Assembly (NCBI RefSeq): GCF_019428685.1
Contig: NZ_CP080096.1
Coordinates: forward strand, 372,001-436,000
Length of the DNA: 64,000 nucleotides
Direction: 5' to 3'
DNA from: Paraburkholderia edwinii
GTDB taxonomy: Bacteria > Pseudomonadota > Gammaproteobacteria > Burkholderiales > Burkholderiaceae
The notes under the pieces are model-generated. The model had not been told where the DNA came from, did not search any database, and saw nothing but the letters and a program-made list of their open reading frames with translations. Position numbers and translations under genes: made by a program. Within the stretch, counting starts at the first letter, position 1; every line of letters begins with the position of its first letter. Below, one piece after another: positions 4,585 to 21,234 of this stretch.

Positions 4585-6345
4585 TCAAAACTGCGCCGTC
4601 AACTGAAATCCGAACGTCACGCGCGCAGTATCGAAATCTTTTGGCTTGTACACCGGCGTGCCCGCAAAGAGATCGTACGCATAGGCGCCGAAGCGCGTCT
4701 GCACTGAGCCGCGCACACCAATCACAGCGCCGGCAAGCTGAGTGCCCGCAAGAAACTCGGTGCTCGGTCCATACAGATGTCCGTAGTCGAGGCCGACGTA
4801 TAACGACTGCCCTGTCTGCGCGATCGGCACCTGCAGCTCGTTACGCCAGTAAAAGCCGCGTTCGGCCGCGAGCATCGTTTCGCCGTCGAAACCGCGCACC
4901 GTGTAGCGGCTGCCGATCGCGAGATCATCGATATAGAACAGCAAGTCGTTCGTGTACTGGCCGTGCACGGTTGTGACATAGCGCAGGTTCTGGCTCGCGA
5001 CGGAGAATGGCACCGATAGGTTCGCGTCGAGCACCGCCATGTGATAGCGGTATGTCGGACCACCTTCAGGTGAAGTATCGGGCGTTGCGCCGAGCCAGCC
5101 GATCCCCTGCCTGTAAGCGAGCGTCCCGTCGAACTGTGCCGCACCGAAATAATGACGATCGGTCACACCGGCCTCGACGAATGTGTTGTCGCGGCGCTGC
5201 TGCTCGATTTCCGTGTCGTCGATAAAGCTCGCGCCCCAGCGTTTCGTCAGCTGGAACTCGACACCGAATACATCGTTCTGCGTGCGGCTCAGCACGCGCT
5301 GCAGCTTCGCGCCGAGCGTCTGCTGATTACCGCTCGAGACGAAGGTCTGATTTACGCCGGCGATCTGCTGGTAGTAGGTGTTTGCGTTGCCGGATACGGT
5401 GGCGGTCCAGTAGCCCCACGGCACCGAATAGAAGCTGTTGAAGCCGTGCGAGCCGAGTCCCTTGTCGCCGAATTCGAGATCCTGATTGGCGCCGATGTTG
5501 AAGAGGTCGTTCAGACCGAGCGGGTTGTCGATGCCGAGCGAGAGATTGCCTTGCAGCTTGCCGGTCGCGCGCTGTCCGGAGTTGTCGACGGATGCGACGA
5601 CGGTCCATGGTTTCGTGCGCTTGACGCTGATGACCACATCGCTTTCGCTCGGGACGTTGGCCGGTTCGATCTTCATGTCGACATCCTGGCTCGGGACGCG
5701 CTTCATCTGCTCAAGGCCTTGCTCGAGATCGCGAAGGTTCAGGACGTCACCGCCGCGAGCGGGGAAGGCTGATTTCCATGTGCCGCGGGTGTTAGGGTCG
5801 GCGTAGCGGAGTTCGCGGATCACGCCTGGGATGAGCGACAGATGCAATGTGCCTTGCGCCAGGTCTTGCTCGGGGATCAGTACGCGCGTCGTGACGTAGC
5901 CTCGATTCAGGATCCGTTGCGATAGGCCTTTGACGATGAGTTCGACACCTTGTTTACCGATGCATTGGCCGCTGTAGTGGTCGAGCCATTCGCGGGCGAA
6001 GGCGAAGCGATCTTGTGGCAGTGCGGATGCGCCTTGGGCGCGGACTTCGTCCGGTAACGTGGGTGGGACGTCGAGTGCGAATGATTTGACTTCGAAGCAA
6101 GGGTGTTCGATTGGTAGCTTTGGATAAGGCTCGGCCGATGGGGCGGTGGAGCGTACCGTAGGCGCGTTTAGTGTGCGTTCGCGCTCGGCCGCTTCGCGCT
6201 GCTGGTCGATTAGCTGCTGCGGCTGGACGGTGCTGCGGGCGGCGTTGGCGAGGTCGGGCGGTGGCGGTGGCGTTTGTGCGAATGCGCCAACTGAAACTAC
6301 GGTAAGTCCGGCGGACAGCATTGCTGCGATGTGTGGCGACTGCAT
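4585..6345 (-). CDS. cdiB: TpsB outer membrane transporter of the CDI/hemagglutinin locus (CdiB)
   Basis: A 586-residue ShlB/FhaC/HecB-family pore that exports the large TpsA partner across the outer membrane. It has a signal peptide ending near GAFAQ, a Pro-rich N-terminal helix segment (PPPPPDLANA), a Gln/Arg/Glu-rich stretch, the POTRA region from about residue 80 (HPCFEVKSF) to 245, and a C-terminal 16-strand beta-barrel ending in a phenylalanine (QLTAQF). The conserved L6-loop motif VRGF is present in SRYTVRGFDGE. It is the last gene of the minus-strand locus, six genes and about 5 kb away from cdiAI, rather than directly after cdiI as in the usual Burkholderia order. Confidence 0.92.
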   Translation of the reverse strand: MQSPHIAAMLSAGLTVVSVGAFAQTPPPPPDLANAARSTVQPQQLIDQQREAAERERTLNAPTVRSTAPSAEPYPKLPIEHPCFEVKSFALDVPPTLPDEVRAQGASALPQDRFAFAREWLDHYSGQCIGKQGVELIVKGLSQRILNRGYVTTRVLIPEQDLAQGTLHLSLIPGVIRELRYADPNTRGTWKSAFPARGGDVLNLRDLEQGLEQMKRVPSQDVDMKIEPANVPSESDVVISVKRTKPWTVVASVDNSGQRATGKLQGNLSLGIDNPLGLNDLFNIGANQDLEFGDKGLGSHGFNSFYSVPWGYWTATVSGNANTYYQQIAGVNQTFVSSGNQQTLGAKLQRVLSRTQNDVFGVEFQLTKRWGASFIDDTEIEQQRRDNTFVEAGVTDRHYFGAAQFDGTLAYRQGIGWLGATPDTSPEGGPTYRYHMAVLDANLSVPFSVASQNLRYVTTVHGQYTNDLLFYIDDLAIGSRYTVRGFDGETMLAAERGFYWRNELQVPIAQTGQSLYVGLDYGHLYGPSTEFLAGTQLAGAVIGVRGSVQTRFGAYAYDLFAGTPVYKPKDFDTARVTFGFQLTAQF

Positions 6346-6414
6346 TGTTTTCGTTCTCTATCGTGCGCTTATCTGATGCTCATCATCCCGTTGACTACGA
6401 GCTTCCTCGCTGCG

Positions 6415-7992
6415 CTAGTTACCCGGAAGAAAAGGCGCGTTGACGTTAAACACGCCCAGCCCAACGTATCCAGGCGGCTCTGGCGCGAGCTCGATGTCCT
6501 TCCCCACCCTCCAGGAGGCAGCCGCTGCTTTTGCCTGCCTAATCTGATCGCGAGTGAGATAAACAGCATTCTGAGGTAGCGTCTTTTTGGCGAACTCATA
6601 CCCGCGTGTCGCAGAGAGAGTCTCCCAAGCGTAGCCTCGACGCAAGTCCTTCTGGACGCCGGAGCCAGTCATGTAAGCCCAACCGAGTTCGAACTGTGCG
6701 TCGCTGACACCCGCGATTGCGGCTGGCTTCAGCCATCTAGCCGCCAGCACGTAGTCCTTAGGCACACGTGTGCCGTGCTGATAAAGCGACCCGTACAATG
6801 CTTGCGCATTCGCGCTACCGCGCTCTGCCGCGAACCGTATCCAGTCAAGACCTTCCCGGTCGTTCCGTGCGACGCCTTCGCCCAGCAGCAGCATTCGACC
6901 TGTTTTAACCTGCGCATCAGGGTTGCCATGTTCGGCTGCCTTTCGATACCAGACATATGCAGTCGTCGTATTCTTCTCGACACCGGCTCCGCGCTCGTAC
7001 AAAAACCCGACGCCCGATTCTCCGACGGCAATGCCTAGTGCGGCAGCGCGCCGGTACCAGTCCATGGCGGCCTTATAGTCCGGTTTACCGTCGATGCCCT
7101 TATACAGCAGCCCCGCAAGCTCGGCGAACGCATTTGGCTCGCCTGCATCCGCGGCCTTGCGAAACCAGCCAAGCGCTATTGACTCGTTTATCGCGACGCC
7201 ATACCCGCGCTCATAGCAGCGCCCCAAATTTGTGTATCCATAGGGAACGTTGGCATCAGCCGCTTTGCGATAGTGAAGCAGCGCACGATCATAGTCGATC
7301 GGCACCCCAGGGGCACCAGACTCGTAGACTGCGCCGATATTGTTTTCTGCGGTGACTGCGCCCAGTGCTCGAGCTTTCTCAAAGAACTTGAGTGCTTGCG
7401 CAGCGTCTCGTGAAACACCGGTTCCATTCAGATACATTGAACCCAGATTATTAGCCGCAGTAGCGTCTTTGTCCGCCGCGAGACTAAGCCAATGCATTGC
7501 CTGCGCATTGTCACGCGGAACGCCTAGTCCCCACGTATACAGCACGCCGAGTCCGGCCTGAGCGAGGGGCTGTCCCCGCTCGGCATACTTGCGAAAGACA
7601 GCGACTGCATTCGGATATTTCTCTCTATCCGTCTGGCCGAACATATACCATGAGGCGAGACCAATTTCGCCTTCCTCCGCCCCTACATCGGCTGCACGCT
7701 TGAATAGAGTGAAAGCACCGGCTGTATCGCGCGGCATACCGACTCCGTACATCATCATCGTGCCGAGATCGGCTTGAGCGCGCGGATCCCCTGCGGACGC
7801 AAGACTGCGCAATTCCGTAGCGGCATCGGCAACTCGATATTCCAGAAGCGCTCGCTCGGCGGACTCGACATCGGCGTGTGCGAATCGAGTTCCAACCGCC
7901 GAGCAAAGCACAAAAGAAATAGCAACGCTCTGACTAACAAAGCGGTAGATGGTCGATCTATGCATAGCCTTGAAAGGGTGATTAAAATTCAT
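6415..7992 (-). CDS. Exported Sel1-repeat protein
   Basis: About 525 residues: a signal peptide (hydrophobic SQSVAISFVLCSAVG, cleavage near AHADVES) followed by about eleven to twelve Sel1-like repeats of ~36 residues, recognisable by repeated A..LG..Y..G.GV..D...A..W...AA. blocks, ending with a short non-repeat tail. Sel1 arrays are alpha-solenoid protein-binding scaffolds, often periplasmic; some are immunity proteins for type VI lipase effectors. It lies 69 bp upstream of cdiB and is probably co-transcribed. Role here is unknown; periplasmic immunity or a TPS assembly factor are both possible. Start is uncertain among GTG 8001, ATG 7992 and ATG 7965; none has a strong ribosome site. Confidence 0.8.
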   Translation of the reverse strand: MNFNHPFKAMHRSTIYRFVSQSVAISFVLCSAVGTRFAHADVESAERALLEYRVADAATELRSLASAGDPRAQADLGTMMMYGVGMPRDTAGAFTLFKRAADVGAEEGEIGLASWYMFGQTDREKYPNAVAVFRKYAERGQPLAQAGLGVLYTWGLGVPRDNAQAMHWLSLAADKDATAANNLGSMYLNGTGVSRDAAQALKFFEKARALGAVTAENNIGAVYESGAPGVPIDYDRALLHYRKAADANVPYGYTNLGRCYERGYGVAINESIALGWFRKAADAGEPNAFAELAGLLYKGIDGKPDYKAAMDWYRRAAALGIAVGESGVGFLYERGAGVEKNTTTAYVWYRKAAEHGNPDAQVKTGRMLLLGEGVARNDREGLDWIRFAAERGSANAQALYGSLYQHGTRVPKDYVLAARWLKPAAIAGVSDAQFELGWAYMTGSGVQKDLRRGYAWETLSATRGYEFAKKTLPQNAVYLTRDQIRQAKAAAASWRVGKDIELAPEPPGYVGLGVFNVNAPFLPGN

Positions 7993-8008
7993 ACGACGCA
8001 CGAAGCGT

Positions 8009-8899
8009 TCATGAAAAATCAGGAAGATTCAAGGTTGCGCGCGGAGGTCTGGATCCGCGTATAAATTGATCTGCAATACCAATGACAAAAAAAACCATCA
8101 TTAATGCACCACTCCATAGAATTGAAAAGACATGAGCAGGTGCACCAGGTAGATTTGCGAGCGGTTGCCAGTAAGGTAAATAGCCAATCAAGGCATTTGC
8201 CATTGCAGCAGCAGAAACGCCGAGCGCGATGCCTGCGCGCCAGCGGCGGCTCTCTCTGGGCGAAAGCACAAGGCCGGCTGCAAGTAAAACGGCGCTGACC
8301 GGAAAATCAAGCAAGCTCGGAACTTTGTACTGGAAAAATACATCCACTCCTCCGCCGACAAAGGACGCAACATAGGCACGGTAGAGAAGCGCTGCGGCGC
8401 CGATCAGACATGCAACTGAGAACACATCGCGAGCGCCGATTCGTTGGTCCGCAGGTTGTTCGGCAAAATATCTGGAGCCTCTGCGGCCACAAAGTACAGC
8501 GAGCATTGCGACGCACGCGGGCACCGCGCTCAGCGCGAGCGCGCCCGGAGACACAGCAAAATAAAACGCAATAGCGACGATGGCGGTCGTCATATACAGC
8601 GCACGCCCCCAGCGTTTGCGCCTCATCATAAGTAATCCGGCAACTATCTGAATCAACGAACATAGCGCTGCTACTAACCACGCCGCACGTTCCGATGAAG
8701 TGTAGAGATTGTTCAGCTCTCGCCATCCGATCGAACGGTAGCTGATCAATGCAAGAATGCTCGATACCGATTGAAGTATCAGTACGTAGATTGCGATGCG
8801 CACGCTGGTGTGACGTTGTTGCATGAATTCTTTCTTAGCGAAAAGACGAATTATCGGCGTCGCGATTTCTGATTGCGCCGTCGTGATGTGATGCGCCAT
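8009..8899 (-). CDS. Multi-pass inner membrane protein of unknown function
   Basis: Up to 296 residues with about seven to eight hydrophobic segments (for example IAIYVLILQSVSSILALI, AAWLVAALCSLIQIVAGLLMM, FSVACLIGAAALLYRAYV, GALMMVFFVIGIADQFI). I recognise no family. The first 25 residues before MQQRHTSV are polar and the ATG at 8899 lacks a ribosome site, so the start may be 8824 (271 residues), which has a weak AAGAAAG upstream. The gene ends 8-17 bp before the Sel1-repeat gene and is probably co-transcribed with it. Base composition is lower in GC than the flanking cdiA and acylase genes. It could be an orphan membrane immunity protein, by analogy with cargo of polymorphic-toxin loci; this is inference only. 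Confidence 0.65.
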   Translation of the reverse strand: MAHHITTAQSEIATPIIRLFAKKEFMQQRHTSVRIAIYVLILQSVSSILALISYRSIGWRELNNLYTSSERAAWLVAALCSLIQIVAGLLMMRRKRWGRALYMTTAIVAIAFYFAVSPGALALSAVPACVAMLAVLCGRRGSRYFAEQPADQRIGARDVFSVACLIGAAALLYRAYVASFVGGGVDVFFQYKVPSLLDFPVSAVLLAAGLVLSPRESRRWRAGIALGVSAAAMANALIGYLPYWQPLANLPGAPAHVFSILWSGALMMVFFVIGIADQFIRGSRPPRATLNLPDFS

Positions 8900-8942
8900 C
8901 GTTTAAAAATCACCCGTTTAGCCGTCGATGGCGTGAATCGCA

Positions 8943-9596
8943 TTACGGCCCGCGTTTTGTCAAACCCTCGTTAACCTCTGGCACAGGACATTTCGGCGCG
9001 AAGCGTGTTTCGACCGGTTCATCCAGTCCATTCCCGTCGATATGGCGAACCTCGATCGCGCATCCGCGTGAATGGCGACTGTTTCCTTCGAAGCCGAGAT
9101 ACACGTCGTAGTCTTGTCCGGCAACCGGCGTGAACATTCTGTCTTGCGCCGTGCATGACCACGAGTACCCACCGTACTTACTGCTTCCCGAATCGCCTGC
9201 GGTTCGCATCGAAAGCGTGACCGGACGCCCATAGGGGACGATGTATTCGCGAATCATGTCCTTGAAATGCAGACCCTCTACACGCATCCCCGGCCTCGGA
9301 CTTTGCGGCATGCCGATCACGATGCTGCGTGACGAGTATTTGTAGCGCGCGAGGAAACCGTCATCGACGTCGATGCGGTCGGGATCGTTCTGCAATCTGC
9401 TTGTGGCGCAACTGCCCAGTCTGAATGAGGCGTTCTGCATGTCGTTTCCGGTGAGGATACGGATGCGTGCAGAAACGGTTGGGTCGTAGGTGGGCGTTTC
9501 GATTGTTACATGGTGAGTCGGGGAGCATGCGCTTAGGAGCATCACGCAACTGGCAGCGTATGGCAAAAGAACACGATGTGCTTTGGAAATATTCAT
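8943..9596 (-). CDS. Hypothetical lipoprotein
   Basis: A 217-residue protein with a lipoprotein signal: positive N-terminus, hydrophobic LLPYAASCVML and lipobox LSAC, giving a mature protein starting at Cys24. After the lipidated Cys there is SPTHH, with no Asp at +2, so outer-membrane sorting is expected. The mature part is beta-rich and contains several Cys (GSCATS, WSCTAQD, RGCAIEV, PKCPVPE) that could form disulfides in the periplasm. No family recognised. It lies 23 bp downstream of the TPR-like lipoprotein gene and 43 bp before the membrane protein gene, in the cargo interval between cdiAI and cdiB. Confidence 0.7.
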   Translation of the reverse strand: MNISKAHRVLLPYAASCVMLLSACSPTHHVTIETPTYDPTVSARIRILTGNDMQNASFRLGSCATSRLQNDPDRIDVDDGFLARYKYSSRSIVIGMPQSPRPGMRVEGLHFKDMIREYIVPYGRPVTLSMRTAGDSGSSKYGGYSWSCTAQDRMFTPVAGQDYDVYLGFEGNSRHSRGCAIEVRHIDGNGLDEPVETRFAPKCPVPEVNEGLTKRGP

Positions 9597-9619
9597 GTTT
9601 CTATTAGACGACGGAAACC

Positions 9620-10555
9620 TTATTGCAAAACACGCTTACCGTGAATCCACTCGATACTTCCGTAAGGCGCTAGCTGGTTGAGCTGCTGCAACATTGCAAG
9701 GCCACCATTCGAGTTATGCCGGACAAACTTGGCGTATGCACCGCCATAGAAAAGCGCTTCGCCAAAGGCCTCTTGCTGGTCGGCTCCTCTCATCTTCCCG
9801 ATGACCACCGCAACGTCATGCACGCTGTCCTGGCCTTGCCACATTCGAAGCAACGGACCATATTGAGTCTGATCATGGGAAGCGTAGTACTGCGCTTGTT
9901 TATCGAGTTCGGCATTCGCTATGGAAGTGTCGTTAGCTCGTGCCATGATGTAGCGGTACACCAGACTCCTGTAGGCATAGAAGCTCGGCCCTTCAAGCAG
10001 AGCATTGGCATCCGCGAGGTCATTGACGGCCTCTTGCCATCGTTGCAACTCGATATTCGCAAACGTGGCGGCGATAAACCCGTCAGTGAATATGCCTAAA
10101 GCCGCGGCGCGTTCATTTGGAGGTTTACTCGCGGCAAACTCTCGCGTCCTCGCGATCTCCGGATCCAAGGTCTTCAACGCCGCCTGCGGGTCGCCCAGCG
10201 AGTACAAGATTTCGGCCTTTGTCGCGATCCATGCTCCTTGCCTTGATGGATCGACTAGCGTCATGGCTTGGTCAATTACGACTAGCGCCTCTTGCGAGCG
10301 GCCCAACGAGTCGAGCGCTGCGGCTTGCTGTTGCATGGCCGATGCTCGCGCGGAGTTTGAGGTCGCCGCCTTTTCTTTTTTTATAGCTTCGGTAAGAGCT
10401 TGCTCATGCTGGATTTTCAGGTAGTTCGGGACTGATGTGGGCCGGCTGTCGGACTTACTCTGTGATGCAACTGGGGCCCGTGTATTGGAACATCCAACAA
10501 TTGTGCAGACCAACGTTGTTGCAACGATGAATGTGCGGAGGTGGATTGTATTCAT
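9620..10555 (-). CDS. TPR-like lipoprotein
   Basis: A 311-residue lipoprotein: signal segment LRTFIVATTLVCTIVGC with lipobox TIVGC and Ser at +2 (outer membrane retention expected). The mature protein is helical and Ala/Gln-rich, with tetratricopeptide-like helix pairs (ALDSLGRSQEALVVIDQAMTL, AEILYSLGDPQAALKTLDPEI, ANIELQRWQEAVNDLADANALL). Proteins of this type act as periplasmic adaptors. It sits inside the cdiA-cdiB interval, on the same strand and tightly spaced with the next lipoprotein. Some Burkholderia loci have a small lipoprotein gene (bcpO) between cdiI and cdiB, but this protein is much larger and I do not equate them. Confidence 0.7.
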   Translation of the reverse strand: MNTIHLRTFIVATTLVCTIVGCSNTRAPVASQSKSDSRPTSVPNYLKIQHEQALTEAIKKEKAATSNSARASAMQQQAAALDSLGRSQEALVVIDQAMTLVDPSRQGAWIATKAEILYSLGDPQAALKTLDPEIARTREFAASKPPNERAAALGIFTDGFIAATFANIELQRWQEAVNDLADANALLEGPSFYAYRSLVYRYIMARANDTSIANAELDKQAQYYASHDQTQYGPLLRMWQGQDSVHDVAVVIGKMRGADQQEAFGEALFYGGAYAKFVRHNSNGGLAMLQQLNQLAPYGSIEWIHGKRVLQ

Positions 10556-10680
10556 TGATTCTTCGGTCCGAAATCTTTGTATCTATTTCAAGGTTGCTAT
10601 CTTCGTTGCGAGCTGCTGCCTGCATGACAGCGCCAATAGTCCGTCGCCACCGTCACAACATGGGCGCGTCCAAGATTTAC

Positions 10681-11208
10681 TCACCTTGAATGCTCGACGC
10701 TCACCCAGTTTGCTATGTCGTCTACCACGTGCTTCAGCCATGCCCAGAAGTCACTGAACCCCTTCGAGAGCTCATAGCCATTTCCAGTCCATCCGTGAAT
10801 CAGTGCGACCCCTTGAACTGCCTTGTCTCCTGCAACTACGAAGCATGCAAGATCGTCGCAGTCCTGCCTCTTTGCGAACGCGAATAGTCGCTTATCAGTA
10901 ACCCCAGGCCACCGGTCCGACGCCCAAAAGGTTTGTTGCATGGGTAGGTAATGCCATGGTTGTAGTTGGGTAAAAGGCTCGTACCCAACGAGCGCTTTAT
11001 CTAGCAGCCATTGATATCCAGAAGGCAACGCCAGCTTTGCCGGTGAATTCACGATGAGCCTCCATTTTGGCGAACAGCTAGCTTGAGCGGCACCGTCGTA
11101 TCCCTTGTGGTATTGGCGGCCATCGATCCGCGCCTCGATACGCCGCGCGGCTCCTTCCGACATCGATGCGCGTCCGAAGCACGGTCGTCTATTGATTACT
11201 GCACGCAA
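10681..11208 (-). CDS. SUKH/SMI1-KNR4-like orphan immunity candidate
   Basis: Up to 175 residues. The C-terminal half (about residues 75-165) has the feel of the SMI1/KNR4 (SUKH) superfamily of toxin-immunity proteins: an aromatic-rich central part (WHYLPMQQTFWASDRWPG), a strand ending in CDDLACFVV, a GVALIHGW strand and a final helix FSDFWAWLKHVVDDIANW. The first ~45 residues are Arg-rich and look unlike the rest; the start could be the ATG at 11163, or the N-terminus may be remnant sequence. The 5' end overlaps the end of the preceding gene by 13 bp. In CDI loci such genes downstream of cdiI are commonly orphan immunities. Family call is by pattern, not by search. Confidence 0.6.
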   Translation of the reverse strand: MRAVINRRPCFGRASMSEGAARRIEARIDGRQYHKGYDGAAQASCSPKWRLIVNSPAKLALPSGYQWLLDKALVGYEPFTQLQPWHYLPMQQTFWASDRWPGVTDKRLFAFAKRQDCDDLACFVVAGDKAVQGVALIHGWTGNGYELSKGFSDFWAWLKHVVDDIANWVSVEHSR

Positions 11209-11627
11209 CTCCTGCGTGTACGCAAGCTATAGGACATCGCGAATCTGTACACCCATTGTGGCGAACCGCCGGAAGTATCTGTGGACGGGATTTCGTTGAT
11301 CCTTGCAAGCATTCCATCTTTGCAAAGCAAATAACTGTGCTCCGTTGTCGCGTCATTTATTTTCCAACCCCTTTCTAGCAGTATCCTTTGGTACTGGTCG
11401 GCTAGACCCGGTGTCCAAGATGCCCCCTCTATGTTTACAATCATCAACGCACCACCAAATTTCGGATTCGAATACTTGGAATAGACGCTTCCGCCAGCAG
11501 TCAAAGCGTCGTCCATATCTTTTTTCATCGACAGCAAATGGCTTTCACTATCGACTTTTGACGGATTCGCCACGCCCGCGATAATCATTACTGTGATACC
11601 GAAGGCTACTACCAGGCAAAACAACAC
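11196..11627 (-). CDS. Small membrane-anchored protein downstream of cdiI
   Basis: A 143-residue protein with an N-terminal membrane anchor (LFCLVVAFGITVMIIAG) and a ~120-residue soluble part. It starts at a GTG preceded by AGG six bases upstream. It lies in the same reading frame as cdiI: the cdiI stop is a single TAG, followed by 11 sense codons and then this GTG, so any TAG read-through would join the two. The soluble part (AGGSVYSKYSNPKFGGALMI, SWTPGLADQYQRILLERGW) is not recognised; a second immunity protein or an accessory is plausible. Low GC compared with the cdiA body. Confidence 0.6.
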   Translation of the reverse strand: MLFCLVVAFGITVMIIAGVANPSKVDSESHLLSMKKDMDDALTAGGSVYSKYSNPKFGGALMIVNIEGASWTPGLADQYQRILLERGWKINDATTEHSYLLCKDGMLARINEIPSTDTSGGSPQWVYRFAMSYSLRTRRSCVQ

Positions 11628-11660
11628 TGACCTGATATCCGATAACCTTGAATTCGCATC

Positions 11661-12113
11661 CTATTGGTCGACACCAAATCTCTTAAGAAAACTCTTTTCG
11701 ATATTTGCGTAACGCGCCTCTATCTGTTTCGGAAATTCAACGAATTCCTCTTGATTATCTTTAAGAAAATCGACCAAATCCTCTGTGCAAATTCTCGCGT
11801 ATTCATCCGTGATTTCGAAGCTTCGCCGCTTTTCATCGTCGGTGTCCGTTAATTCACGTAGAAGCCTCCTCTTTCTATCCAGGCGCTCTGGATCGATTAG
11901 CTCCTCGAGAAGTGAAACATCAAACACCTTACCGCTGTTATCTAGCACTGCGACCGAAATGATGGGTTCGATCGAACTCTCGATTAAAAATCTGACTGTC
12001 ATCACATTATTTGACGCTTCGATCACATAGGTGTCGTTGCGGCTGATCGCAAACGGGGGCCCGGGCAATGCTCCAAGAGCGCGCTGAACGTGAGATAAAT
12101 ACGGTTCGATCAT
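11661..12113 (-). CDS. cdiI: Predicted CDI immunity protein (CdiI)
   Basis: A 150-residue soluble, acidic protein (cluster ELTDTDDEKRRSFEITDEYARICTEDLVDFLKDNQEEF) with no signal peptide, as expected of a cytoplasmic antidote to the CdiA C-terminal toxin. It begins only four bases after the cdiA stop codon, the diagnostic position for cdiI. The sequence is markedly AT-rich: 47 of 120 bases are G or C in 11701-11820, against 38 of 60 in 15001-15060 inside cdiA, typical of horizontally exchanged toxin-immunity modules. No known immunity family recognised. Function is assigned from position and composition. Confidence 0.75.
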   Translation of the reverse strand: MIEPYLSHVQRALGALPGPPFAISRNDTYVIEASNNVMTVRFLIESSIEPIISVAVLDNSGKVFDVSLLEELIDPERLDRKRRLLRELTDTDDEKRRSFEITDEYARICTEDLVDFLKDNQEEFVEFPKQIEARYANIEKSFLKRFGVDQ

Positions 12114-12117
12114 AGTG

Positions 12118-15100
12118 TTATCGCCGAGTCATCATTCCTGAAACGCTATCATATGAGTACCCATTCTTCTGCAGATACTGCATCTCGCGCCCAAAACCCG
12201 TCAGGCTTCCATCCGGTCTCACTAACACATCCGGGGTTGGCTTCGTCGCAATAAATATGTTGTCACCACGCTGAATGGCTTGATCAAGAAACGGCATGTT
12301 GACCTCGCCCCAAAACTGATCAGGCGTCTTGTACATATTGTCAGGAACATTAAGTACATTAAATCCACCCGGTTTCGCGTCAAAATTCGTTGTCTTCGGA
12401 TAACCAAGCTGCTCATTAATAACGTTATTCATGTCTAACGCAAAGCTACCAAGAACCGTTGTAGTCTTGTTAGGGTCCACAGTCACGACGATACCACTAG
12501 GCGAGCCAATAGGATCCAGACTTGGACTACCGTCTCGGTAAAAGTTATTAGTGATTTTTGCTTCTTGTGTCGCCGCACTCCCTCCGCTCGCCGTCGGAAC
12601 GCCTTGACTTGTAAGCGTAGTACCCGCTGCCGCGCCAAGATTGATCGCTCCATAAGCAAGAGCAGCCGCCTGCGGACTCAATCCAAGTGACTGCAAAACC
12701 TGCTCACCATACGTCGACGTGACGTTGCCGCTCAGCATCTGCGCGAATCCGGCATTCGAATAGTCCAGACTCGTAGTGGCAACTGCCGCCCCAAGGCTAC
12801 AGGCAATAACCGTCGGGCACGCGACACTAATCGCCCCCGCAGCGGCTGCAGCACCGGTAACACCTTGCACGGCGCCAACCGCACGGACAGGAACCTGGTT
12901 CCTGTCCGACCAGTCGCCGAACGCATCGGCTACACCGTATCCATCGAAGGCTCCGGCTTTTACGAGCGTGCTTTGTTCAGCGGTGAAGTATTGGCCCGCA
13001 TCCTGCATTTGCTGAAGCGCTGCTTTGGACGCGTCGTTATCGGGAACGCCTGCCGCACACAGCACCAACGCGCATTCGGCGGCAGCCAGTCTGTACTGTT
13101 CGTCGGTCGACTTCCCTTGCATGAGTTGAGCGAGCTTCTGCGCTTCGGTCGGATGCAACTGCCGGTTAAAAGCATCCACATTCGAAGCCGCAGCCGCCCC
13201 AACACCCCCACCCACCGCCCCGCCCGCCGCAGTCGCCAGCAAGTTCGCAATAACATTGCCGACCCCATGCCCCACGGTCCCAGGATCGCCAAACTGGTTC
13301 GCAACGTCATTCAGCGCCGGCGCGAGATAAGCAGACGCACCAGCCCCGGCCGCACCGCCCGCAGCACCTACAACACTGCCCCCACCCAATCCGCCAAGCA
13401 GCGCACCGCCAGCCACATGAAGGATGATGCGATTGGTCCCACCTTCACTCCACGCGTCGGCGTCCGCCTTGTATTCGCCCGCAAGTTCCGTATCACCGAG
13501 CAACGCCGCGGCCTTCTGGCCGTCGCGCGCCTTCGCCTGCTTATAATCCGCGTACGTCCCGATATCCTTAGCAACCGCCTGCCCCGCAGCATTCGCTGCG
13601 CTCATCACGTCGAGTTCGTCGCCCAGCACACCGCTCACATCAGGCAGCTTCGAAACCGTGCCGTTCAGATTCGACGTATCCCGGTTCAGGTTCGATACAT
13701 CTTGCGTCTGGCCCGCCGAATCGGTCACCGTAATCGTCCCGGCACTGATGGCGGTCTTCGTCGTGGCGGTCGAATTGCTATGGTCGGACTGGCCTATCAT
13801 CGGCGTGAAGCCTTGCGTGCCCACACCAAAGCCACTCGTCGACGAGTTGTATTCCGAATGATTCTGGATATCGGAGTACGTCAGCGTGCCCGTCGTCAGG
13901 TTGTTCTTCGATGCCTCCGCGTCGCTGCCGATATACGCGCCCGTCAGGTTCGTATTGCCCTTCACGCTGATGTCGAACCCGCCGCTGCCGGCCTGAATTC
14001 CCGCCTGCTCGTTCACCGCCGCATAGTTGCCGTTCGCGCTGCCGTGCTGACTGCTGATGCTCGCGCTGCCGCCGCCCTGCGAAATGCTGAATCCGCCACC
14101 CGTACTCGACTGATGCGCGGCGCTCACCGTTGTGTCCTGCACACTCTGGATATTCAGATTTCCGCCGATGTCCGCAGCAACGTGATTGCCGCTCACATCC
14201 GCACCGACAATATTCGTGTCGCCGCCCGACACGATCGTCACGTTATTGCTTGCCGTTACGTGCGTGTTGTTCTGCGTCACGGCATCCGAATTCGAATCGC
14301 CATGCGAATTGGACATCGATGCCGATACACCCCAGCCTTTCGTGCCGTACGACACACCGACGCTCGCGCTGCTCGATTCGTTCGTGCTGCGCGTCGAATC
14401 GGTGTTCGTCGAGTTCACGAGGTTCACCTGATTCTGAGCCACCAGTGCAACGTTACTCGCGCTAACGTCCGAGCCCGCGATGGTCAGGTTGCCGCTTCCC
14501 GGCGTGCCGTTGCCGGTTGCGATGAACGTCGCGTTGCCGCCGGCGTTAATCGCCGAACCGGTCTGCGTGGTCTGATCCTCGGTGAACGTGTTCTTCGTAT
14601 GACTGGTTCCCCAGCTCAGCTCAATGCTGACATCGGGCGTGCCACCCGATGCGAGTTGCCCGACCGCGTCTCCGGCATTGCCGGCGGCCGCGACCGCATG
14701 CAAGGCTTTCGCGCGCCCATCGTGGCTGTCCGAGGCCGCATGACTCTGGTCAACCGCGCTTGAAATCGCCTGCGCGACGGAACCGCCTACGCCTAGCGTG
14801 AATCCGCTCGTCTTCGTTTCTTGCGTTTCATCATGGTGGTTCGTATTCGTCGCCGAATCGATCGTCACGTTCGCCGCGACGCCCGTGATGTTCTGCGCTG
14901 CAATGACATCGCTGCCCGTAATGTGCAGATCGTTGCCGGCCGCCATCGTCACGCTACCGTTCGTGCTGCCGACGAGGCTGCTGTTCTGCGTTACAGAACT
15001 GTCGTGCGTGGTGTCTTTCTGATCGCTGCTGCCGTACGAGATGCCAGCGCCACCAGTCGCTCCCAACCCCGACTTCGTCTCCTCATGAAAACTACTGCTC

Positions 15101-18100
15101 TCACTCGTGTTCTGGGTCGTCGTAATCGTGAGGTCATGCCCCGCCGACAACACCATATCGCTCGTCGAAGCGACAGTCGAACCCGCAATAGTCAGATCAT
15201 GACCGGCCGTCACGCCGACCGTATCGCCCGCCACCGTCGCCCCCACCGCATCCACTTCATGCGACGACTTCTGGTCCGTCGTCTTGTCGCTCGACATGAA
15301 ACCGGAATGTTCGACATGCTCCCAGCTCTGCGAATCGTGCGTTTCGTTGACGGCACCGATCGTCACATTGCCTGTTGCCGCAAGCGTGGTCGCGCCGCCG
15401 CTCATGCTGCCGTCCGCGGCGGTCGAACCTGTCGTCACGCTCGACCCCAGAACGGAGAGATTGCCACCGCCGGTCGCCGCGTCCTTCGCCACGCCCACGC
15501 CATACTGCGATAACAACGCCGAAGCGGTCGCGCCCTGTCCTGCGCCCAGCGTCATGTTGTTGTTCGCATTCAGATCGCTGCCCTGCACCGCTTCGTCATA
15601 ACTCGACGCCGTATGCTTCGCCTGCGGGCCGCCTAGCGACTGCTCGCTATGCGTGGCCGTATCCTTTGCCGCCGTCACGGTCAGGTCGTTGCCCGCGATC
15701 ATCGTCGCGTCGCCGGCTGACTTCACCGTGGCATCGGTCAGCGTCGTGTTGCCGCCCGACACGCTCGTGAAACTGCCGCCCGTCGTGATCGTGCTGCCCA
15801 CGTTCTGCGTGACGCTATCGTGGCCGCCATTCAATCCGTCGTTGGTGCCCGCGTCGCGCGTGCTCGTCAGCGTCGTCGTACCGACATTGATATCGCGGCC
15901 CGCGCCGACCATCGCGCTCCCGCCCGACTCGATCGACGCACCGCTCAGGTCGACGTCGCGGCCGGCAAGAATCAGCGCATTGCCCGATGCCGAGATCGTG
16001 CCGGTCGCAAGCGTGCTTTGCGACGATGCGCTCGACGTGAAGCCACTTTCGTTCAGCGTCTTCGAAATGTCCGTGGTCGCCGTTTCGTTGATCACATCGC
16101 GGCCGGCCTGCACCAGCGTATCCGCGCCGCCGATGCGGCCGCTCACGTTGCGCACGTCCTGCACAGCCGCCACCGCGGTCGTGCCGCCGCTGCCGATCAC
16201 GCCACTGTTCACGACGTTGTTGCCGATCACCGTCGTCGCCACGTTGCTGACGATCTGGCCGCTGTTGTTCACGTCGCCGGTGGCGTTCAGGTTCACCGTA
16301 TTGCCCGCGACAATCGCTCCGCTATCCTGAAGATCGACCGTGCTGCTCTGCGCGAGATACAGCTTCGGCACTAGCACCGTCTGCTGCGTGCCGTCCGGCA
16401 GCGTTACCGTTTGCGACACGAGCCAGACCATGTCGGTCGTCAGCTGCTGCATCTGCGCATCGGTCAAGCCAACGCCGGGCGTCAGGCCAAACGCCTGTGC
16501 GTACGTCACGCCGTTGTTCATCAACGCGGTGTACTCGTCCATGTTGTCCGTGTAACCGGTCAGGAACGTGCGTCCCGTCAGCTGCGTGACCTGGTTCATC
16601 ACGAGCTGCTCTTCATACATGCCGTCGCCGAGGCGCTTCTCTGTCGTCTGCGGGTTCAGGCCCAGCTGGCCCAGCATGTAGTCGCTCGAAACAAACTTGC
16701 TGTAGGTCGTGAATCGCGGGTCCGTTGCGACGAGGTACGTGGCGGAAGGCGCGGGCTGCAGCGAAAACAGTCCATTGATGGGCAACGTCAGGTTCGGAAT
16801 GCCGCCCGATGCGCTGCCGAGCGTCTGTGGCCGGTTCGTCTGTCCCGACAGGTTGCCGAGCTGCGTGCCCGTCGCGTTGCCGCCCGTCACGCCGGAGCCG
16901 AGCACGGTCTGGCCGACGAGATTCACGCTGCCGATGTTGATGTTCGCGCCCGTGGTCTGCACCGCGCCGCCCGCGGTCGCAATCGCGGCGAGCGCGCCGA
17001 CCGTGGTCGTCGTCGAGCTCACGCCGTCTTCAACGGTCTTCGTGTCGGTGCTGCCGCCCGTCTTCTGGTGCCAGAAGAACGTCGACTGCGTATCGGTCGT
17101 CACGGTTTGCTGCAGCACCGTGCCGGTGTCGTTAACGGTGCCGCCGTTCGCGCGGCGCACAAGATTGCCGCCTGCGGCCATCGCCGACGACTGGTTGTTG
17201 ATACTGCCGCCATCCGCGTTGATGCGGATCGAACCCTGCGACTGGATCGTGGCGGCGGTGCCGGCACTCAGGAGCTGATCGGTCGCGATCGTTGTCTTCG
17301 TGGTGCGCGACAGTTCGACGTAGTCGTGACTGTCCGAGCCGAGGTCCGTCCGTGTCTTGACATCGTCGGGCCGGATGTTCGTGTTCGGATTCCAGTCCGG
17401 CCACAGAGTAATGGTGTACGTGTCGCCGTTGTCCGTAATGCTGTTGTAGTACTGCGTCGCGTTGTTCGTGATCGTGCGTGTCTGCGCGACAGGCACCTCG
17501 ATGCAGAAGTTTTTGCAGACCTCGGTCGTCGGGCTCGAAGCATCGATATAGCTGTCGAACAGCGGGGTCGTCAGCGATAACGTCTGCGCCGCCGTGTTCA
17601 AATTCGCCACTTGCGACTTCGGAACGGTAACCGTAATCGGCTTCATCAGACCGCCGATCGCTGCTATGCCGATTGCTCCGGCGTCGAAATTCCAATACCC
17701 GCTCTGGTATTGGCCGAGATCGCCGGTTGGGATGCCCGCCGTCCATAGCGAAAGCGTCGTCGTGCCCGCATCCTGCGCGGTGCCGGCCTGTGTGACGACG
17801 CCCGTGCGGCTGTTGTTGACCGTATGCGCGGCGATGTCGATATCGCCCGCTGCCTCGATGTTCGCAGCGCTATTCGTCAACGTACCGGTCTGGTCCGCGA
17901 GCAGACCCGATGCGTCGCGCGCGCCATCCCTTGCGATCTCGAGATTGCCGGCGCTGTACATCAGCGCGCCATCCGCATTCGTCACCGAGTTCGCGGCGTA
18001 GACCTTCACGCCTTGTGCGCCGGCGATCACGGCGGCCGCGCCGCTGTTCTGCACATCCGACGCGTTGACCTGCACGTTGTTGCCGATCACCGCGCCCGTG

Positions 18101-21100
18101 TTCGCGAGCGTCGCGCTGTTCGTCGTGACCGTATCGCCTTCGATACGCCCCGCGTTCGTCAGCGTGTTCGATGCGGTGACGGTCGTGGTCGCGCTGTCGA
18201 TATCGGCGTTGGCCGAATTCACGACGTTGGCGCCCGATGCATTGATCGACGTACCTGCGGCAAGCGTGCCCGTGTTCGTCAGCGTGCCGGTCGCGGAGAG
18301 CGACAGATTGCCGTCCGCATGCAGACGATTCGCCGCGCTGTTCGTGTAGTCGCCTGCAACAGCGAGCGACAGATTGCGCCCGGCCGTCATCTCACCATCG
18401 CCGATGACGCCGCCGCCCACCGCGATGTCGCGGTTCGCACGGATCGCGCCGCCCGCATTCGCGAGCAACGCGACCTGCATCGATACGTCCTGGCCACCTT
18501 CGATCTGGCCGCCCGCGTTCGTCACGGTAGCGCCCGCCTGCTTCAGGTTCAGCGCCGTCGCGCCGTAGACGGTGCCGCCCGAATTGTTCACGCTTTGCGC
18601 GACGTTCAGATTCGCCGCGCCGCCTGCGACGAGTTGCGCCCCCGCAGTGTTGGTCAGCGACTGCGCGTTCAACGTGACGTCGCCGTTGCCGCCAAGCGTG
18701 CCGCCCGTGTTTGCGACGGCTGTAGACGACGTCACCGTGAGTGCGCCGTCGCCTGCGTTCGTCAGCGTGCCCGAGGTGTTGTCGATGCTCGATGCGGATA
18801 CGGCGGTGCTGCCGTGCGCGCCGTTCGCGGATATCGAGCCTTGCGCGTTCGACAGCGCGCCGCCGGCCGCTATCGACAGATTGCCGTTCGTCTGTGTCGA
18901 ACCGGCGCTATTGTCGAACGTGCCTTGCGTAGTTGCGGTGAGACCATCGGCGCCGTAGAGCGTGCCGTCGTGATTGACAAGCGCGTTCTTCGCATCGACG
19001 CTTGCCGAACCCTGCGCGGACAGCGTGCCGTTCGTATTGTGGATGCTCACGGTTTGCGCGTTGAGTGCGCCGTTCGTCGCAACCTGGCCGCCAACGTTCG
19101 ACAGCGTACCGCGCGCGTCGACCGCTAATGTGCCTGCGCCCGCGTGTTCGATCGAACCGTGATCGTCGTTCGTGATGTTCTGCGCTGATACGGTAAGGTT
19201 CGACGCATTGCTCGCAATCGTGCCGCCCGTGTTGTCGATCGAACCGCCGACAGCGAGCGTCTGGTCGGCATCACCATATTGCTGGATCGCGCCGCCACGA
19301 TTGATCAGATCTCCGGAGGTGGAGAGCGCAAGCGTGTTGCTCTCGATCGCACCATTCGTATCGTCGATTGAGCCTGCCGAAACCGTGATCGAATCGCCGG
19401 ATAGCGTTCCGTTGCGGTTGCCGAGCGCGCCGGCCACCCTCATACCTAGACTGCCGCCTGCCACGATGCTGCCGGCCGGGTTGTCGAGCGATTGCGCCCT
19501 GATGGCCGTGTCGCCGTTCGCTGTGAGCTGCCCCTGGTTCGCGATCGCGCCAGCCGATACGTTCAGCGATCCATTGGTGCCGATTACGCCGCCCGTTGCG
19601 CCCGTCGCCGTGTTGCCCGCGCCATTCACCAGGGCGCCGCTCGTTGCGACATCGAGGCCATCCGCGTTCAGCGAGACGATGCGGCCCGCTGTGTTGTCGA
19701 TCGAACCCGCGCTGATGCTTTCACGTCCCGCGGCCTGAACGATGCCCTGCTGGTTGTTCAGCGCGGCATTTGCAGCGACGTCGAGCGTGGACTGCGAAGC
19801 AATCTCGCCACCCTGATTGGACAGCGCACCGGCTGACAACGTTTGCGCGCCCGATGAAGACAATACGCCACGATCGTTCGTCAGCGTCCCCGCTGCATGA
19901 GCGGACAATGCGCCGCCCGCGACAGTCGTCGCGCCAGCGAGACCCAGATCGCCAGCGGATGCATTGAGCGTGAGATTGCCGTTTGCCGAAGTCTGGCTGC
20001 CGGCCAGATTCATCGATGCGCCGGCAAGCGATGCGTTGCCGCCCGCCACGTTCTCGCCCGTCGCCGCAAGCATGCCGGTCGCCGATACGGTCAGTTCGCC
20101 GCTGCTCGCAGTCGAGCCATCGCTGTTGATGCCTGCGCCGAGCGTGCCGGTCGAATTGACGCTGCCCGCGCTGATGCTCGTGTTCTGCTGTGCCGCGAGG
20201 GTGCCCCTGTTGGTCACATCCGCCGCGGTATTGACCGCTACGCTTTGCTGCGCGTAAGTCGTCCCGCTGTTGGCGATGCCGCCCGCCGCCGCGATCGACA
20301 GGTTGCCGCTCGCCGTGGTGCGGCCCGACAGCACGACGCGGCCCTGCGCGGTGAGCGAGAAGTCGCCGCTTTGCGCGGCGAGTACGCCGGCATTCGCTAC
20401 GCCCACGCCGTACTCGTTCGACACGAGATAGATCCGGTTCGCGTACATGCCGCCCAGTTGAGCGACGTCGATTGCAAGCGCCGGCGCGCTACCGTTTCCG
20501 GCAATCGGCGTGGCCGCGAGCGTGTCGTGATTGACATGGTTCGCGCCTGCGATCACGTTCAGTGAGTTGCCGTAGATAGCCGCGTTCGCTTGCACGGCGC
20601 GCGCGATCAGGTCCACCTGATCGACGTTTGTTGCGTTAAGACCCGCGCCTTGCACCGTGATCAGGCCGCCCGTTACATTGAAGCCGGTCAGCGCGCCGTT
20701 GCCGTCGAACAGCGGTGTGCCTGTCGTCAGCACGCCGCGCGTCGTGTTGATAAAGCCGCCGCCGTCGACGACGATGCCCGAGCCGTTCGCGACGACCACC
20801 TCCGCCCGGCTGCCCGCCACCTCAATGTAGCCGCGCAACTGGCTCGGCGAATTGCTGTTGACCTGGTTGAGAATGATCCGTGCCGACTGTCCCGGCGCGA
20901 GATTCGGATTGCCGTTGACGTAACCCGCCTGCTGCGTATTGACGATCGTCGGCGAGTTATTGAGGATGACACCCGCCTTCGGAACATCGAATTGCGAATA
21001 GGCGTTCTGCGACACGCCGGCACCCGACGGTGTCGTGATGTTGACCTGCTGGATGCCGTTGGCTGTTTGAACGACCGATGGCCTGTGCGCGCCGCCGTTC

Positions 21101-21234
21101 GGATCGGCGACGACCTGCGCACGTGCGGGATCCGCTAACGCGGCAGCAAGCGTTAGTGCAATCAACGTGTCTTCAACAACACCCCGTAAACCCCGTAGCC
21201 CGCTTTGAGCAAGCCGATATTCGCTCTTATTCAT
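12118..21234 (-). CDS. cdiA: CdiA-type contact-dependent inhibition / filamentous hemagglutinin (TpsA)
   Basis: A 3038-residue TpsA exoprotein. Residues 1-40 form an extended signal peptide (MNKSEYRLAQ, cleavage near ARAQ). Residues ~45-170 are the TPS secretion domain, with NPNL at 109-112 and the VANGSGIVVDGGGFINT segment. Then come long degenerate FHA-type repeats (roughly 17.8-20.4 kb), a receptor-binding/FHA-2 region, and a pretoxin region with the motif DAFNRQLHPTEAQ (His about residue 2694). After it lie an Ala-rich hydrophobic segment (VTGAAAAAGAISVAC), probably a cytoplasm-entry domain, and a ~130-residue toxin tail from about residue 2900. The tail carries GGFNVLNVPDNMYKTPDQFW and LTGFGREMQYLQKNGYSYD, resembling an uncharacterised polymorphic-toxin tail family. 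The toxin activity is not known to me. Confidence 0.92.
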   Translation of the reverse strand: MNKSEYRLAQSGLRGLRGVVEDTLIALTLAAALADPARAQVVADPNGGAHRPSVVQTANGIQQVNITTPSGAGVSQNAYSQFDVPKAGVILNNSPTIVNTQQAGYVNGNPNLAPGQSARIILNQVNSNSPSQLRGYIEVAGSRAEVVVANGSGIVVDGGGFINTTRGVLTTGTPLFDGNGALTGFNVTGGLITVQGAGLNATNVDQVDLIARAVQANAAIYGNSLNVIAGANHVNHDTLAATPIAGNGSAPALAIDVAQLGGMYANRIYLVSNEYGVGVANAGVLAAQSGDFSLTAQGRVVLSGRTTASGNLSIAAAGGIANSGTTYAQQSVAVNTAADVTNRGTLAAQQNTSISAGSVNSTGTLGAGINSDGSTASSGELTVSATGMLAATGENVAGGNASLAGASMNLAGSQTSANGNLTLNASAGDLGLAGATTVAGGALSAHAAGTLTNDRGVLSSSGAQTLSAGALSNQGGEIASQSTLDVAANAALNNQQGIVQAAGRESISAGSIDNTAGRIVSLNADGLDVATSGALVNGAGNTATGATGGVIGTNGSLNVSAGAIANQGQLTANGDTAIRAQSLDNPAGSIVAGGSLGMRVAGALGNRNGTLSGDSITVSAGSIDDTNGAIESNTLALSTSGDLINRGGAIQQYGDADQTLAVGGSIDNTGGTIASNASNLTVSAQNITNDDHGSIEHAGAGTLAVDARGTLSNVGGQVATNGALNAQTVSIHNTNGTLSAQGSASVDAKNALVNHDGTLYGADGLTATTQGTFDNSAGSTQTNGNLSIAAGGALSNAQGSISANGAHGSTAVSASSIDNTSGTLTNAGDGALTVTSSTAVANTGGTLGGNGDVTLNAQSLTNTAGAQLVAGGAANLNVAQSVNNSGGTVYGATALNLKQAGATVTNAGGQIEGGQDVSMQVALLANAGGAIRANRDIAVGGGVIGDGEMTAGRNLSLAVAGDYTNSAANRLHADGNLSLSATGTLTNTGTLAAGTSINASGANVVNSANADIDSATTTVTASNTLTNAGRIEGDTVTTNSATLANTGAVIGNNVQVNASDVQNSGAAAVIAGAQGVKVYAANSVTNADGALMYSAGNLEIARDGARDASGLLADQTGTLTNSAANIEAAGDIDIAAHTVNNSRTGVVTQAGTAQDAGTTTLSLWTAGIPTGDLGQYQSGYWNFDAGAIGIAAIGGLMKPITVTVPKSQVANLNTAAQTLSLTTPLFDSYIDASSPTTEVCKNFCIEVPVAQTRTITNNATQYYNSITDNGDTYTITLWPDWNPNTNIRPDDVKTRTDLGSDSHDYVELSRTTKTTIATDQLLSAGTAATIQSQGSIRINADGGSINNQSSAMAAGGNLVRRANGGTVNDTGTVLQQTVTTDTQSTFFWHQKTGGSTDTKTVEDGVSSTTTTVGALAAIATAGGAVQTTGANINIGSVNLVGQTVLGSGVTGGNATGTQLGNLSGQTNRPQTLGSASGGIPNLTLPINGLFSLQPAPSATYLVATDPRFTTYSKFVSSDYMLGQLGLNPQTTEKRLGDGMYEEQLVMNQVTQLTGRTFLTGYTDNMDEYTALMNNGVTYAQAFGLTPGVGLTDAQMQQLTTDMVWLVSQTVTLPDGTQQTVLVPKLYLAQSSTVDLQDSGAIVAGNTVNLNATGDVNNSGQIVSNVATTVIGNNVVNSGVIGSGGTTAVAAVQDVRNVSGRIGGADTLVQAGRDVINETATTDISKTLNESGFTSSASSQSTLATGTISASGNALILAGRDVDLSGASIESGGSAMVGAGRDINVGTTTLTSTRDAGTNDGLNGGHDSVTQNVGSTITTGGSFTSVSGGNTTLTDATVKSAGDATMIAGNDLTVTAAKDTATHSEQSLGGPQAKHTASSYDEAVQGSDLNANNNMTLGAGQGATASALLSQYGVGVAKDAATGGGNLSVLGSSVTTGSTAADGSMSGGATTLAATGNVTIGAVNETHDSQSWEHVEHSGFMSSDKTTDQKSSHEVDAVGATVAGDTVGVTAGHDLTIAGSTVASTSDMVLSAGHDLTITTTQNTSESSSFHEETKSGLGATGGAGISYGSSDQKDTTHDSSVTQNSSLVGSTNGSVTMAAGNDLHITGSDVIAAQNITGVAANVTIDSATNTNHHDETQETKTSGFTLGVGGSVAQAISSAVDQSHAASDSHDGRAKALHAVAAAGNAGDAVGQLASGGTPDVSIELSWGTSHTKNTFTEDQTTQTGSAINAGGNATFIATGNGTPGSGNLTIAGSDVSASNVALVAQNQVNLVNSTNTDSTRSTNESSSASVGVSYGTKGWGVSASMSNSHGDSNSDAVTQNNTHVTASNNVTIVSGGDTNIVGADVSGNHVAADIGGNLNIQSVQDTTVSAAHQSSTGGGFSISQGGGSASISSQHGSANGNYAAVNEQAGIQAGSGGFDISVKGNTNLTGAYIGSDAEASKNNLTTGTLTYSDIQNHSEYNSSTSGFGVGTQGFTPMIGQSDHSNSTATTKTAISAGTITVTDSAGQTQDVSNLNRDTSNLNGTVSKLPDVSGVLGDELDVMSAANAAGQAVAKDIGTYADYKQAKARDGQKAAALLGDTELAGEYKADADAWSEGGTNRIILHVAGGALLGGLGGGSVVGAAGGAAGAGASAYLAPALNDVANQFGDPGTVGHGVGNVIANLLATAAGGAVGGGVGAAAASNVDAFNRQLHPTEAQKLAQLMQGKSTDEQYRLAAAECALVLCAAGVPDNDASKAALQQMQDAGQYFTAEQSTLVKAGAFDGYGVADAFGDWSDRNQVPVRAVGAVQGVTGAAAAAGAISVACPTVIACSLGAAVATTSLDYSNAGFAQMLSGNVTSTYGEQVLQSLGLSPQAAALAYGAINLGAAAGTTLTSQGVPTASGGSAATQEAKITNNFYRDGSPSLDPIGSPSGIVVTVDPNKTTTVLGSFALDMNNVINEQLGYPKTTNFDAKPGGFNVLNVPDNMYKTPDQFWGEVNMPFLDQAIQRGDNIFIATKPTPDVLVRPDGSLTGFGREMQYLQKNGYSYDSVSGMMTRR

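Follow-up and report, generated by a model that had tools for sequence, protein, structure and literature searches.

The window analyzed here, a stretch of 64,000 nucleotides on contig 2 of the two-contig, 8.3 Mb genome of Paraburkholderia edwinii, carries a minus-strand run of nine genes (21234 to 4585) that is, as judged from its sequence, a contact-dependent growth inhibition (CDI) operon with the Burkholderia gene order A-I-...-B. In the order of their reading, the genes are cdiA, a cdiI candidate, two small genes that we call Imm143 and Imm175, the lipoprotein genes LpTPR and Lp217, a membrane protein gene (MP), a gene for a Sel1-repeat protein (Sel1) and cdiB. On balance we lean toward the view that the operon is a mosaic, in which an envelope module with an NlpI-type fold stands in the place of BcpO and aids the export, holding or processing of CdiA. 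The two proteins that are central to this view, Lp217 and LpTPR, look like accessory factors and not like antidotes, because they co-occur with CdiB or other genes of two-partner secretion (TPS) regardless of the toxin end and because a related pair is fused into one protein elsewhere. The gene order, protein families, linkage, fusion and predicted folds on which we draw were obtained by computation.

Lp217 (8943..9596) is predicted to be a lipid-anchored protein with a beta-sandwich fold, and its gene often adjoins cdiB; the lipoboxes seen in the two lipoproteins, IVGC and LSAC, are each followed by Ser. Strong matches to Lp217 (E 1e-30 or better), searched over 144 genomes of the genus, number 23, and 17 of them have cdiB beside them, with MP and Sel1 intervening in the window and a distance of ~0.7 kb in G074:C7. 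Lp217 follows cdiB, and does not precede it, in 3 of these 17 places (G014, G021:C3:703200 and G096). The remaining matches comprise four of the 23 for which neither CdiA nor CdiB was matched in the fetched stretch (one lies 2.3 kb from a contig end) and two that are cut by contig ends. We also set the cdiB locus of the window beside 61 more; these 62 loci are the best-ranked places of a listing and therefore a non-random set, to which several genomes contribute two. Lp217 lies in the gap between cdiA and cdiB in 12 of these loci, window included, and outside the window only 48-114 bp separate its end from cdiB in all 11. Its identity is 42-92% among seven loci with differing CdiA ends and, because this likeness is kept, Lp217 is predicted not to be an allele-specific immunity, which would not behave like this across unrelated CdiA ends. 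Relatives of Lp217 that have no nearby CdiA or CdiB (L209:9073-10156 and L210:8694-9813) each immediately follow a gene for a small lipoprotein, similar on reading to those encoded ahead of cdiB in L120, L146 and L158.

Relatives of LpTPR (9620..10555), a predicted outer-membrane lipoprotein, are present at an identity of at least 45% in 14 genomes (7 of the 144 in the genus and 7 more in a 299-genome sample of the family), distant ones of 38% or less being left out of the count. Those in G303 and G379 are fragments, and the one in G379 is split into two frames. In 8 of the 14 genomes a ShlB or TPS domain is encoded no more than 5 kb from the gene, as compared with 0.17 genomes expected from the amount of such DNA per genome, and in 11 no more than 30 kb from it, as compared with 0.71 expected; without the window's own genome, the counts are 7 and 10 of 13. 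The probability of the 5-kb linkage is 7e-11 when kinship is ignored, and two of the genomes (G259 and G383) belong to one genus and have much the same arrangement.

Nine of the 14 genomes encode LpTPR as part of a longer frame of ~480-540 amino acids (aa), whose N-terminal half matches the N-terminal half of the fusion in genome G081, and five of these nine are among the genomes that show the 5-kb linkage to a TPS domain. The N-terminal half of the G081 fusion matches Lp217 (profile comparison probability 92%, E 5.7e-7; BLASTP E 2e-5), and its C-terminal half corresponds to LpTPR at full length. Fused examples adjoin genes for a small TpsA and a TpsB, to which L053 adds an SPFH protein and L055 both an SPFH and a PpiC-type protein, or they lie just behind cdiB, as in L198 and L200 of another genus; L199, from a third genus, has Lp217 and LpTPR as separate genes in its cdiA-cdiB gap. 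Lp217 and LpTPR very likely work together, since their genes are neighbors here, are neighbors in the cdi locus of another genus and, in related form, make up one protein elsewhere. For a fused relative of LpTPR from P. antibiotica, ~250 residues are predicted to take up the NlpI-type fold of tetratricopeptide repeats (TPR).

Tail-specific proteases have lipoprotein partners, as in the pairs Prc-NlpI of E. coli and CtpA-LbcA of P. aeruginosa. According to the portions available of the published reports, the same slot is occupied by BcpO, which is predicted to be an outer-membrane lipoprotein; B. thailandensis depends on it for autoaggregation and for CDI to the full extent, and BcpA is still detected in its absence (PMC3415462). 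The function of BcpO is given as not known (PMC9086364, PMC10449530). The C-terminal prodomain of FhaB, a TPS protein, is described as held in the periplasm and processed by DegP and the tail-specific protease CtpA (PMC8263021, in part). From the role of BcpO, the processing of FhaB and the protease-lipoprotein pairs, we infer that LpTPR and Lp217 might work at CdiB as paired adaptors, which shield or present the part of CdiA that is in the periplasm or give it space.

The operon might have grown in layers, consisting of cdiA with its presumed immunity, the two orphan immunities, the envelope module and cdiB. LpTPR and Lp217 are probably lipid-anchored to the outer membrane, facing the periplasm, where they would sit beside the POTRA domains of CdiB and act on CdiA as it crosses or waits. 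LpTPR would be an NlpI-type adaptor through which the periplasmic part of CdiA, or the surrounding cell wall, is either presented to a tail-specific protease or peptidoglycan hydrolase or shielded from it, and Lp217 would be the partner to which it docks, in the position that BcpO takes in other Burkholderia loci. MP, as an inner-membrane protein, and Sel1, as a periplasmic solenoid, might extend this chain to the inner membrane or might be a passenger pair.

A number of observations weigh against such an envelope module. Lp217 is missing from the gap in 50 of the 62 loci, and LpTPR, MP and Sel1 lie in the gap in only one of the 62. Lp217 also tracks cdiB loosely, in that the CdiB of L066 is 86-87% identical to those of L059, L069 and L116 and its Lp217 only 42%, and the predicted fold of Lp217 has no strong match in the PDB. 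The LpTPR genes of three of the 14 genomes (G192, G194 and G379) have no TPS domain nearby, those of G117, G051 and G018 are 15-27 kb away from one, and the genes in B. stagnalis (L221) and G379 (L202) are directly behind mlaA; among five distant LpTPR loci (38% or less) that were read, TPS linkage was seen in L059 only. The NlpI fold was predicted on the fused P. antibiotica relative, which is 62% identical to LpTPR of the window over that part, and PDB sequence searches, which can miss distant kin, gave no NlpI match. A single TPS locus besides that of the window, L053, speaks for counting MP and Sel1 as part of the module. The first-pass annotation had proposed to look among relatives for the cargo between cdiA and cdiB, and the outcome is mixed: Lp217 answered to this in the 12 gaps mentioned above and LpTPR, MP and Sel1 in the window only, while Lp217 and LpTPR are found together in L199, from outside the genus.

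The same annotation had described a full cdiA, an adjacent cdiI candidate, six cargo genes and a cdiB on the same strand ~5 kb further on, a description that the frames and domains confirm. All nine frames are open at the coordinates that it gave, on the minus strand. The cdiA gene (12118..21234) encodes a TpsA protein of 3038 aa with a TPS domain (PF05860, E 4.7e-47 in Pfam), filamentous hemagglutinin repeats (PF13332, E 3.8e-51) and a variable C-terminus; its body is 45-72% identical among the long CdiA frames compared, and its last 160 aa are matched in none of the 143 further genomes of the genus that were searched. The motif Nx(E/Q)LYN is absent from CdiA, which has NRQLH at residue 2690 instead, and we have for this reason not placed CdiA in the B. 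pseudomallei/thailandensis allele class. The cdiI candidate (11661..12113, 150 aa) starts 4 bp past cdiA, has no Pfam match and resembles, weakly, a single protein of the fetched loci (21% over 117 aa); its assignment rests on position, because nothing related to the toxin end of CdiA was found in those 143 genomes. At the other end of the run, cdiB (4585..6345) encodes a TpsB transporter of 586 aa with two POTRA domains (PF08479 and PF17287) and a ShlB domain (PF03865, E 1.9e-103). Two further places with a TPS domain exist in the same genome (G000), at ~4169357-4171935 of contig 1 and ~590531 of contig 2.

The intergenic gaps of the run are short, with a maximum of 125 bp (5' of LpTPR), 7 bp between MP and Sel1 and 69 bp between Sel1 and cdiB. 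Neither promoter-like sites (4, as compared with 5.1 in shuffles) nor terminator-like sites (4, as compared with 7.5) are in excess between positions 4300 and 12300. Ten flanking frames that were scanned are regulators and metabolic genes, one being without a match, and the window contains no tRNA gene.

The gap between cdiA and cdiB could be measured in 48 of the 62 loci, window included, and ranges from 311 to 8086 bp with a median of 2072 bp. At 5773 bp, the gap of the window is the longest clean one in the set, since the three that exceed it hold pieces of CdiA and are inflated by them. Multi-gene gaps are common among the 48 loci; in the portions available of the literature, orphan modules between cdiI and cdiB are in print (PMC9086364) and the bcpI-bcpB gap of B. 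dolosa is ~8 kb (PMC10449530). The earlier statement that known Burkholderia loci have cdiB directly past cdiI, or one small gene past it, was therefore too strict. Pfam scanning covered part of the 115 listed gap frames (ten, plus a few more). BcpO-sized lipoproteins of 66-70 aa lie in the gap of three of the 62 loci (L110, L111 and L134), and lipoproteins of a single BLAST cluster, one of whose members is a BamE by Pfam, are encoded at most 260 bp before cdiB in five (L118, L120, L146, L156 and L158); among the four cluster members scanned, only that of L156 passed for BamE, and that of L118 is a shortened frame. Four Paraburkholderia loci (L067, L112, L131 and L144) and L228 of B. arboris have a cassette in the gap that encodes a HAD-UbiA prenyltransferase, a multi-pass protein of ~390 aa that has no significant Pfam match and an EamA-type protein of ~112 aa, and at least one gap contains a gene for an acyltransferase-SGNH fusion (L140:8886-10919). 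Sister loci fill the cdiI-cdiB slot with other envelope genes, a statement that implies no enrichment over random expectation. The HAD-UbiA cassette is also present in B. multivorans L229, where the 19 kb fetched have no CdiA or CdiB match.

A gap of this kind could be a recombination hot spot, in which MP and Sel1, and perhaps LpTPR, were inserted as passengers that are expressed from the operon without a role in CDI. We regard this as a minor possibility, although it is the best of the alternatives. It would agree with the GC content of the genes in the gap (0.457-0.575), which is below that of cdiB (0.609) and of the cdiA body (0.636), with other gaps that contain pieces of CdiA or the reverse transcriptase of a group II intron, and with the placement of MP and Sel1, which split Lp217 from cdiB where the two are so close in the 11 other loci. 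The genomic contexts of MP (8009..8899) and Sel1 (6415..8001) point the same way. A hydropathy scan marked eight hydrophobic segments in MP and none in Sel1, which has 10 Sel1 stretches (E 3.1e-75 in Pfam) and an N-terminus that reads like an export signal; the earlier prediction of four cargo proteins out of six in the envelope is matched by the two lipoboxes and the segments of MP, and for Sel1 by a signal taken from reading. MP and Sel1 are neighbors in seven genomes, five of the 144 in the genus (G000, G064, G081, G107 and G135) and two of another genus (G247 and G274), and MP is found without Sel1 in three further genomes of the genus (G058, G069 and G093). Two of the seven contexts are CDI or TPS loci (the window and L053 of G081, which has LpTPR), one is beside a type VI secretion system (T6SS) locus and four are neither. 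A gene for a TPR-type lipoprotein lies close upstream of the pair in four of the seven (L192 by a Pfam match below the cut-off, and L193 by likeness to that of L192). In L101 the pair is beside two prolyl oligopeptidases, and Sel1 is split. As these neighborhoods indicate, MP and Sel1 are a travelling envelope pair. Insertion of passengers leaves unexplained the position of Lp217 by cdiB, the fusion and the linkage of LpTPR to TPS genes, and the cargo frames are open, tightly spaced and on one strand. Adjacent pairs that are distantly similar, of a TPR protein of 526-582 aa and a Sel1 protein of 970-994 aa, were seen in L056, L057, L058 and L059, and the pair of L059 directly follows cdiB.

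Alternatively, the lipoproteins, MP and Sel1 might be an envelope bank of immunities that neutralize periplasm- or membrane-acting toxins delivered by CDI or by a T6SS. The known immunities of T6SS effectors include Sel1 proteins and lipoproteins, and MP with its eight segments is such a protein as an immunity to a membrane toxin might be. In L102, the MP-Sel1 pair is at the end of a T6SS locus, behind TssM; that locus has genes for VgrG, DUF4123, a Tle1-type lipase (with a second, shorter similar frame), a DUF3304 lipoprotein and TssL- and TssM-type proteins ahead of the pair. In the other six genomes with MP and Sel1, no effector was recognized among those neighbors of the pair that were scanned. 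The neighboring Imm143 and Imm175 do look like ordinary orphan immunities on the evidence of their relatives, in agreement with the earlier call of two immunity-like genes by cdiI. Imm143 (11196..11627), a CdiI-type candidate with one N-terminal hydrophobic segment, has relatives in eight fetched loci, six of which have it directly behind CdiA or a C-terminal toxin frame (12-53 bp after it, or overlapping). Imm175 (10681..11208) has one relative among the fetched loci, 73% identical and directly behind a DUF637-bearing toxin-type gene in L053; since this relative aligns from residue ~46-53, the true start of Imm175 is probably past the first TTG. These two genes could be leftovers of earlier toxin exchanges. 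For the envelope proteins themselves we consider an immunity bank unlikely: Lp217 does not co-vary with the CdiA C-terminus, and no toxin gene was recognized by the MP-Sel1 pair in L100, L101, L192 and L193, where neighbors were Pfam-scanned in part. In the portion available of a large survey, only one immunity family, Imm65, is lipoprotein-like (PMC3482391). Of the two readings that the first-pass annotation had left side by side, accessory factors of CdiA are favored for Lp217 and LpTPR and immunities for Imm143 and Imm175, and the contexts of MP and Sel1 speak neither way.

It is least probable, and by our estimate very unlikely, that gap cassettes alter the envelope of the producer and block binding or entry of sister or rival CdiA as a second, receptor-level layer of immunity, for although the HAD-UbiA cassette, the acyltransferase-SGNH gene, the neighbors of UbiA relatives on Vibrio and Rhizobium plasmids (EamA or GtrA with sugar or redox genes) and the use of lipopolysaccharide as a receptor by some CdiA proteins (PMC9086364, in the portion available) would suit it, all of these cassette and acyltransferase-SGNH genes are absent from the window, and no enzyme domain was found in the window cargo.

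If we return to an accessory module of LpTPR and Lp217, a broader generalization can be proposed, tentatively and with considerable doubt. Many TPS and CDI systems of the Burkholderiaceae might have a dedicated NlpI-type outer-membrane adaptor with the beta-sandwich partner Lp217, often fused to it, that controls tail-specific proteolysis or local opening of the wall around periplasmic CdiA. The cdiI-cdiB gap would then be a slot that is repeatedly given envelope modules (adaptor lipoproteins, BamE-like lipoproteins and surface-sugar cassettes), which tune the export of CdiA or change its receptor. If true, unrelated envelope genes in the same slot would mean that CDI operons recruit envelope functions too, beyond their toxin-immunity pairs.

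Among the known systems, as far as the available portions of the sources describe them, the orphan cdiI modules (PMC9086364) resemble Imm143 and Imm175 in their placement between cdiI and cdiB; unlike these modules, the two genes have no displaced CdiA-CT fragment that was noticed beside them on reading the frames of the window, a reading that included no dedicated search. The cdiBCAI locus of E. coli (PMC9086364) likewise has an accessory gene inside a CDI locus, and its product CdiC acts on CdiA and not as an immunity, but CdiC is an acyltransferase and the cargo of the window has no Pfam match of that kind. The Burkholderia bcpAI(O)B locus (PMC3415462, PMC10449530) shares with the window the one-strand A-I-...-B order, in keeping with A-I-(O)-B, a large TPS exoprotein, a variable C-terminus and a lipoprotein gene near bcpB; the window differs by the addition of LpTPR as another lipoprotein and of MP and Sel1, and NRQLH replaces Nx(E/Q)LYN. 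BcpO has 73-74 aa and is encoded directly 5' of bcpB, whereas Lp217 is 217 aa long and clusters with none of the BcpO-sized lipoproteins (66-70 aa) in L110, L111 and L134, these sister-locus proteins having served as stand-ins for the published BcpO sequence, and no frame with a lipobox lies within 260 bp 5' of the cdiB of the window. Lp217 may work like BcpO and is not filed as BcpO.

LpTPR differs from NlpI, the TPR lipoprotein adaptor of Prc and MepS, in that it has no match to it that PDB sequence searches could detect, is often fused to an Lp217-like domain and is linked to TPS genes; it is like NlpI in its lipid anchor, its TPR-type repeats and the fold predicted over ~250 residues of its relative. 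The manner in which the C-terminal part of CdiA is retained in the periplasm, protected there or trimmed ahead of contact is, to our knowledge, not yet settled. To this question a pair of lipoproteins linked to CDI, with a predicted NlpI-type fold, would bring two named genes and a specific guess, namely that they serve a wall hydrolase or a protease of the CtpA/Prc type as an adaptor.

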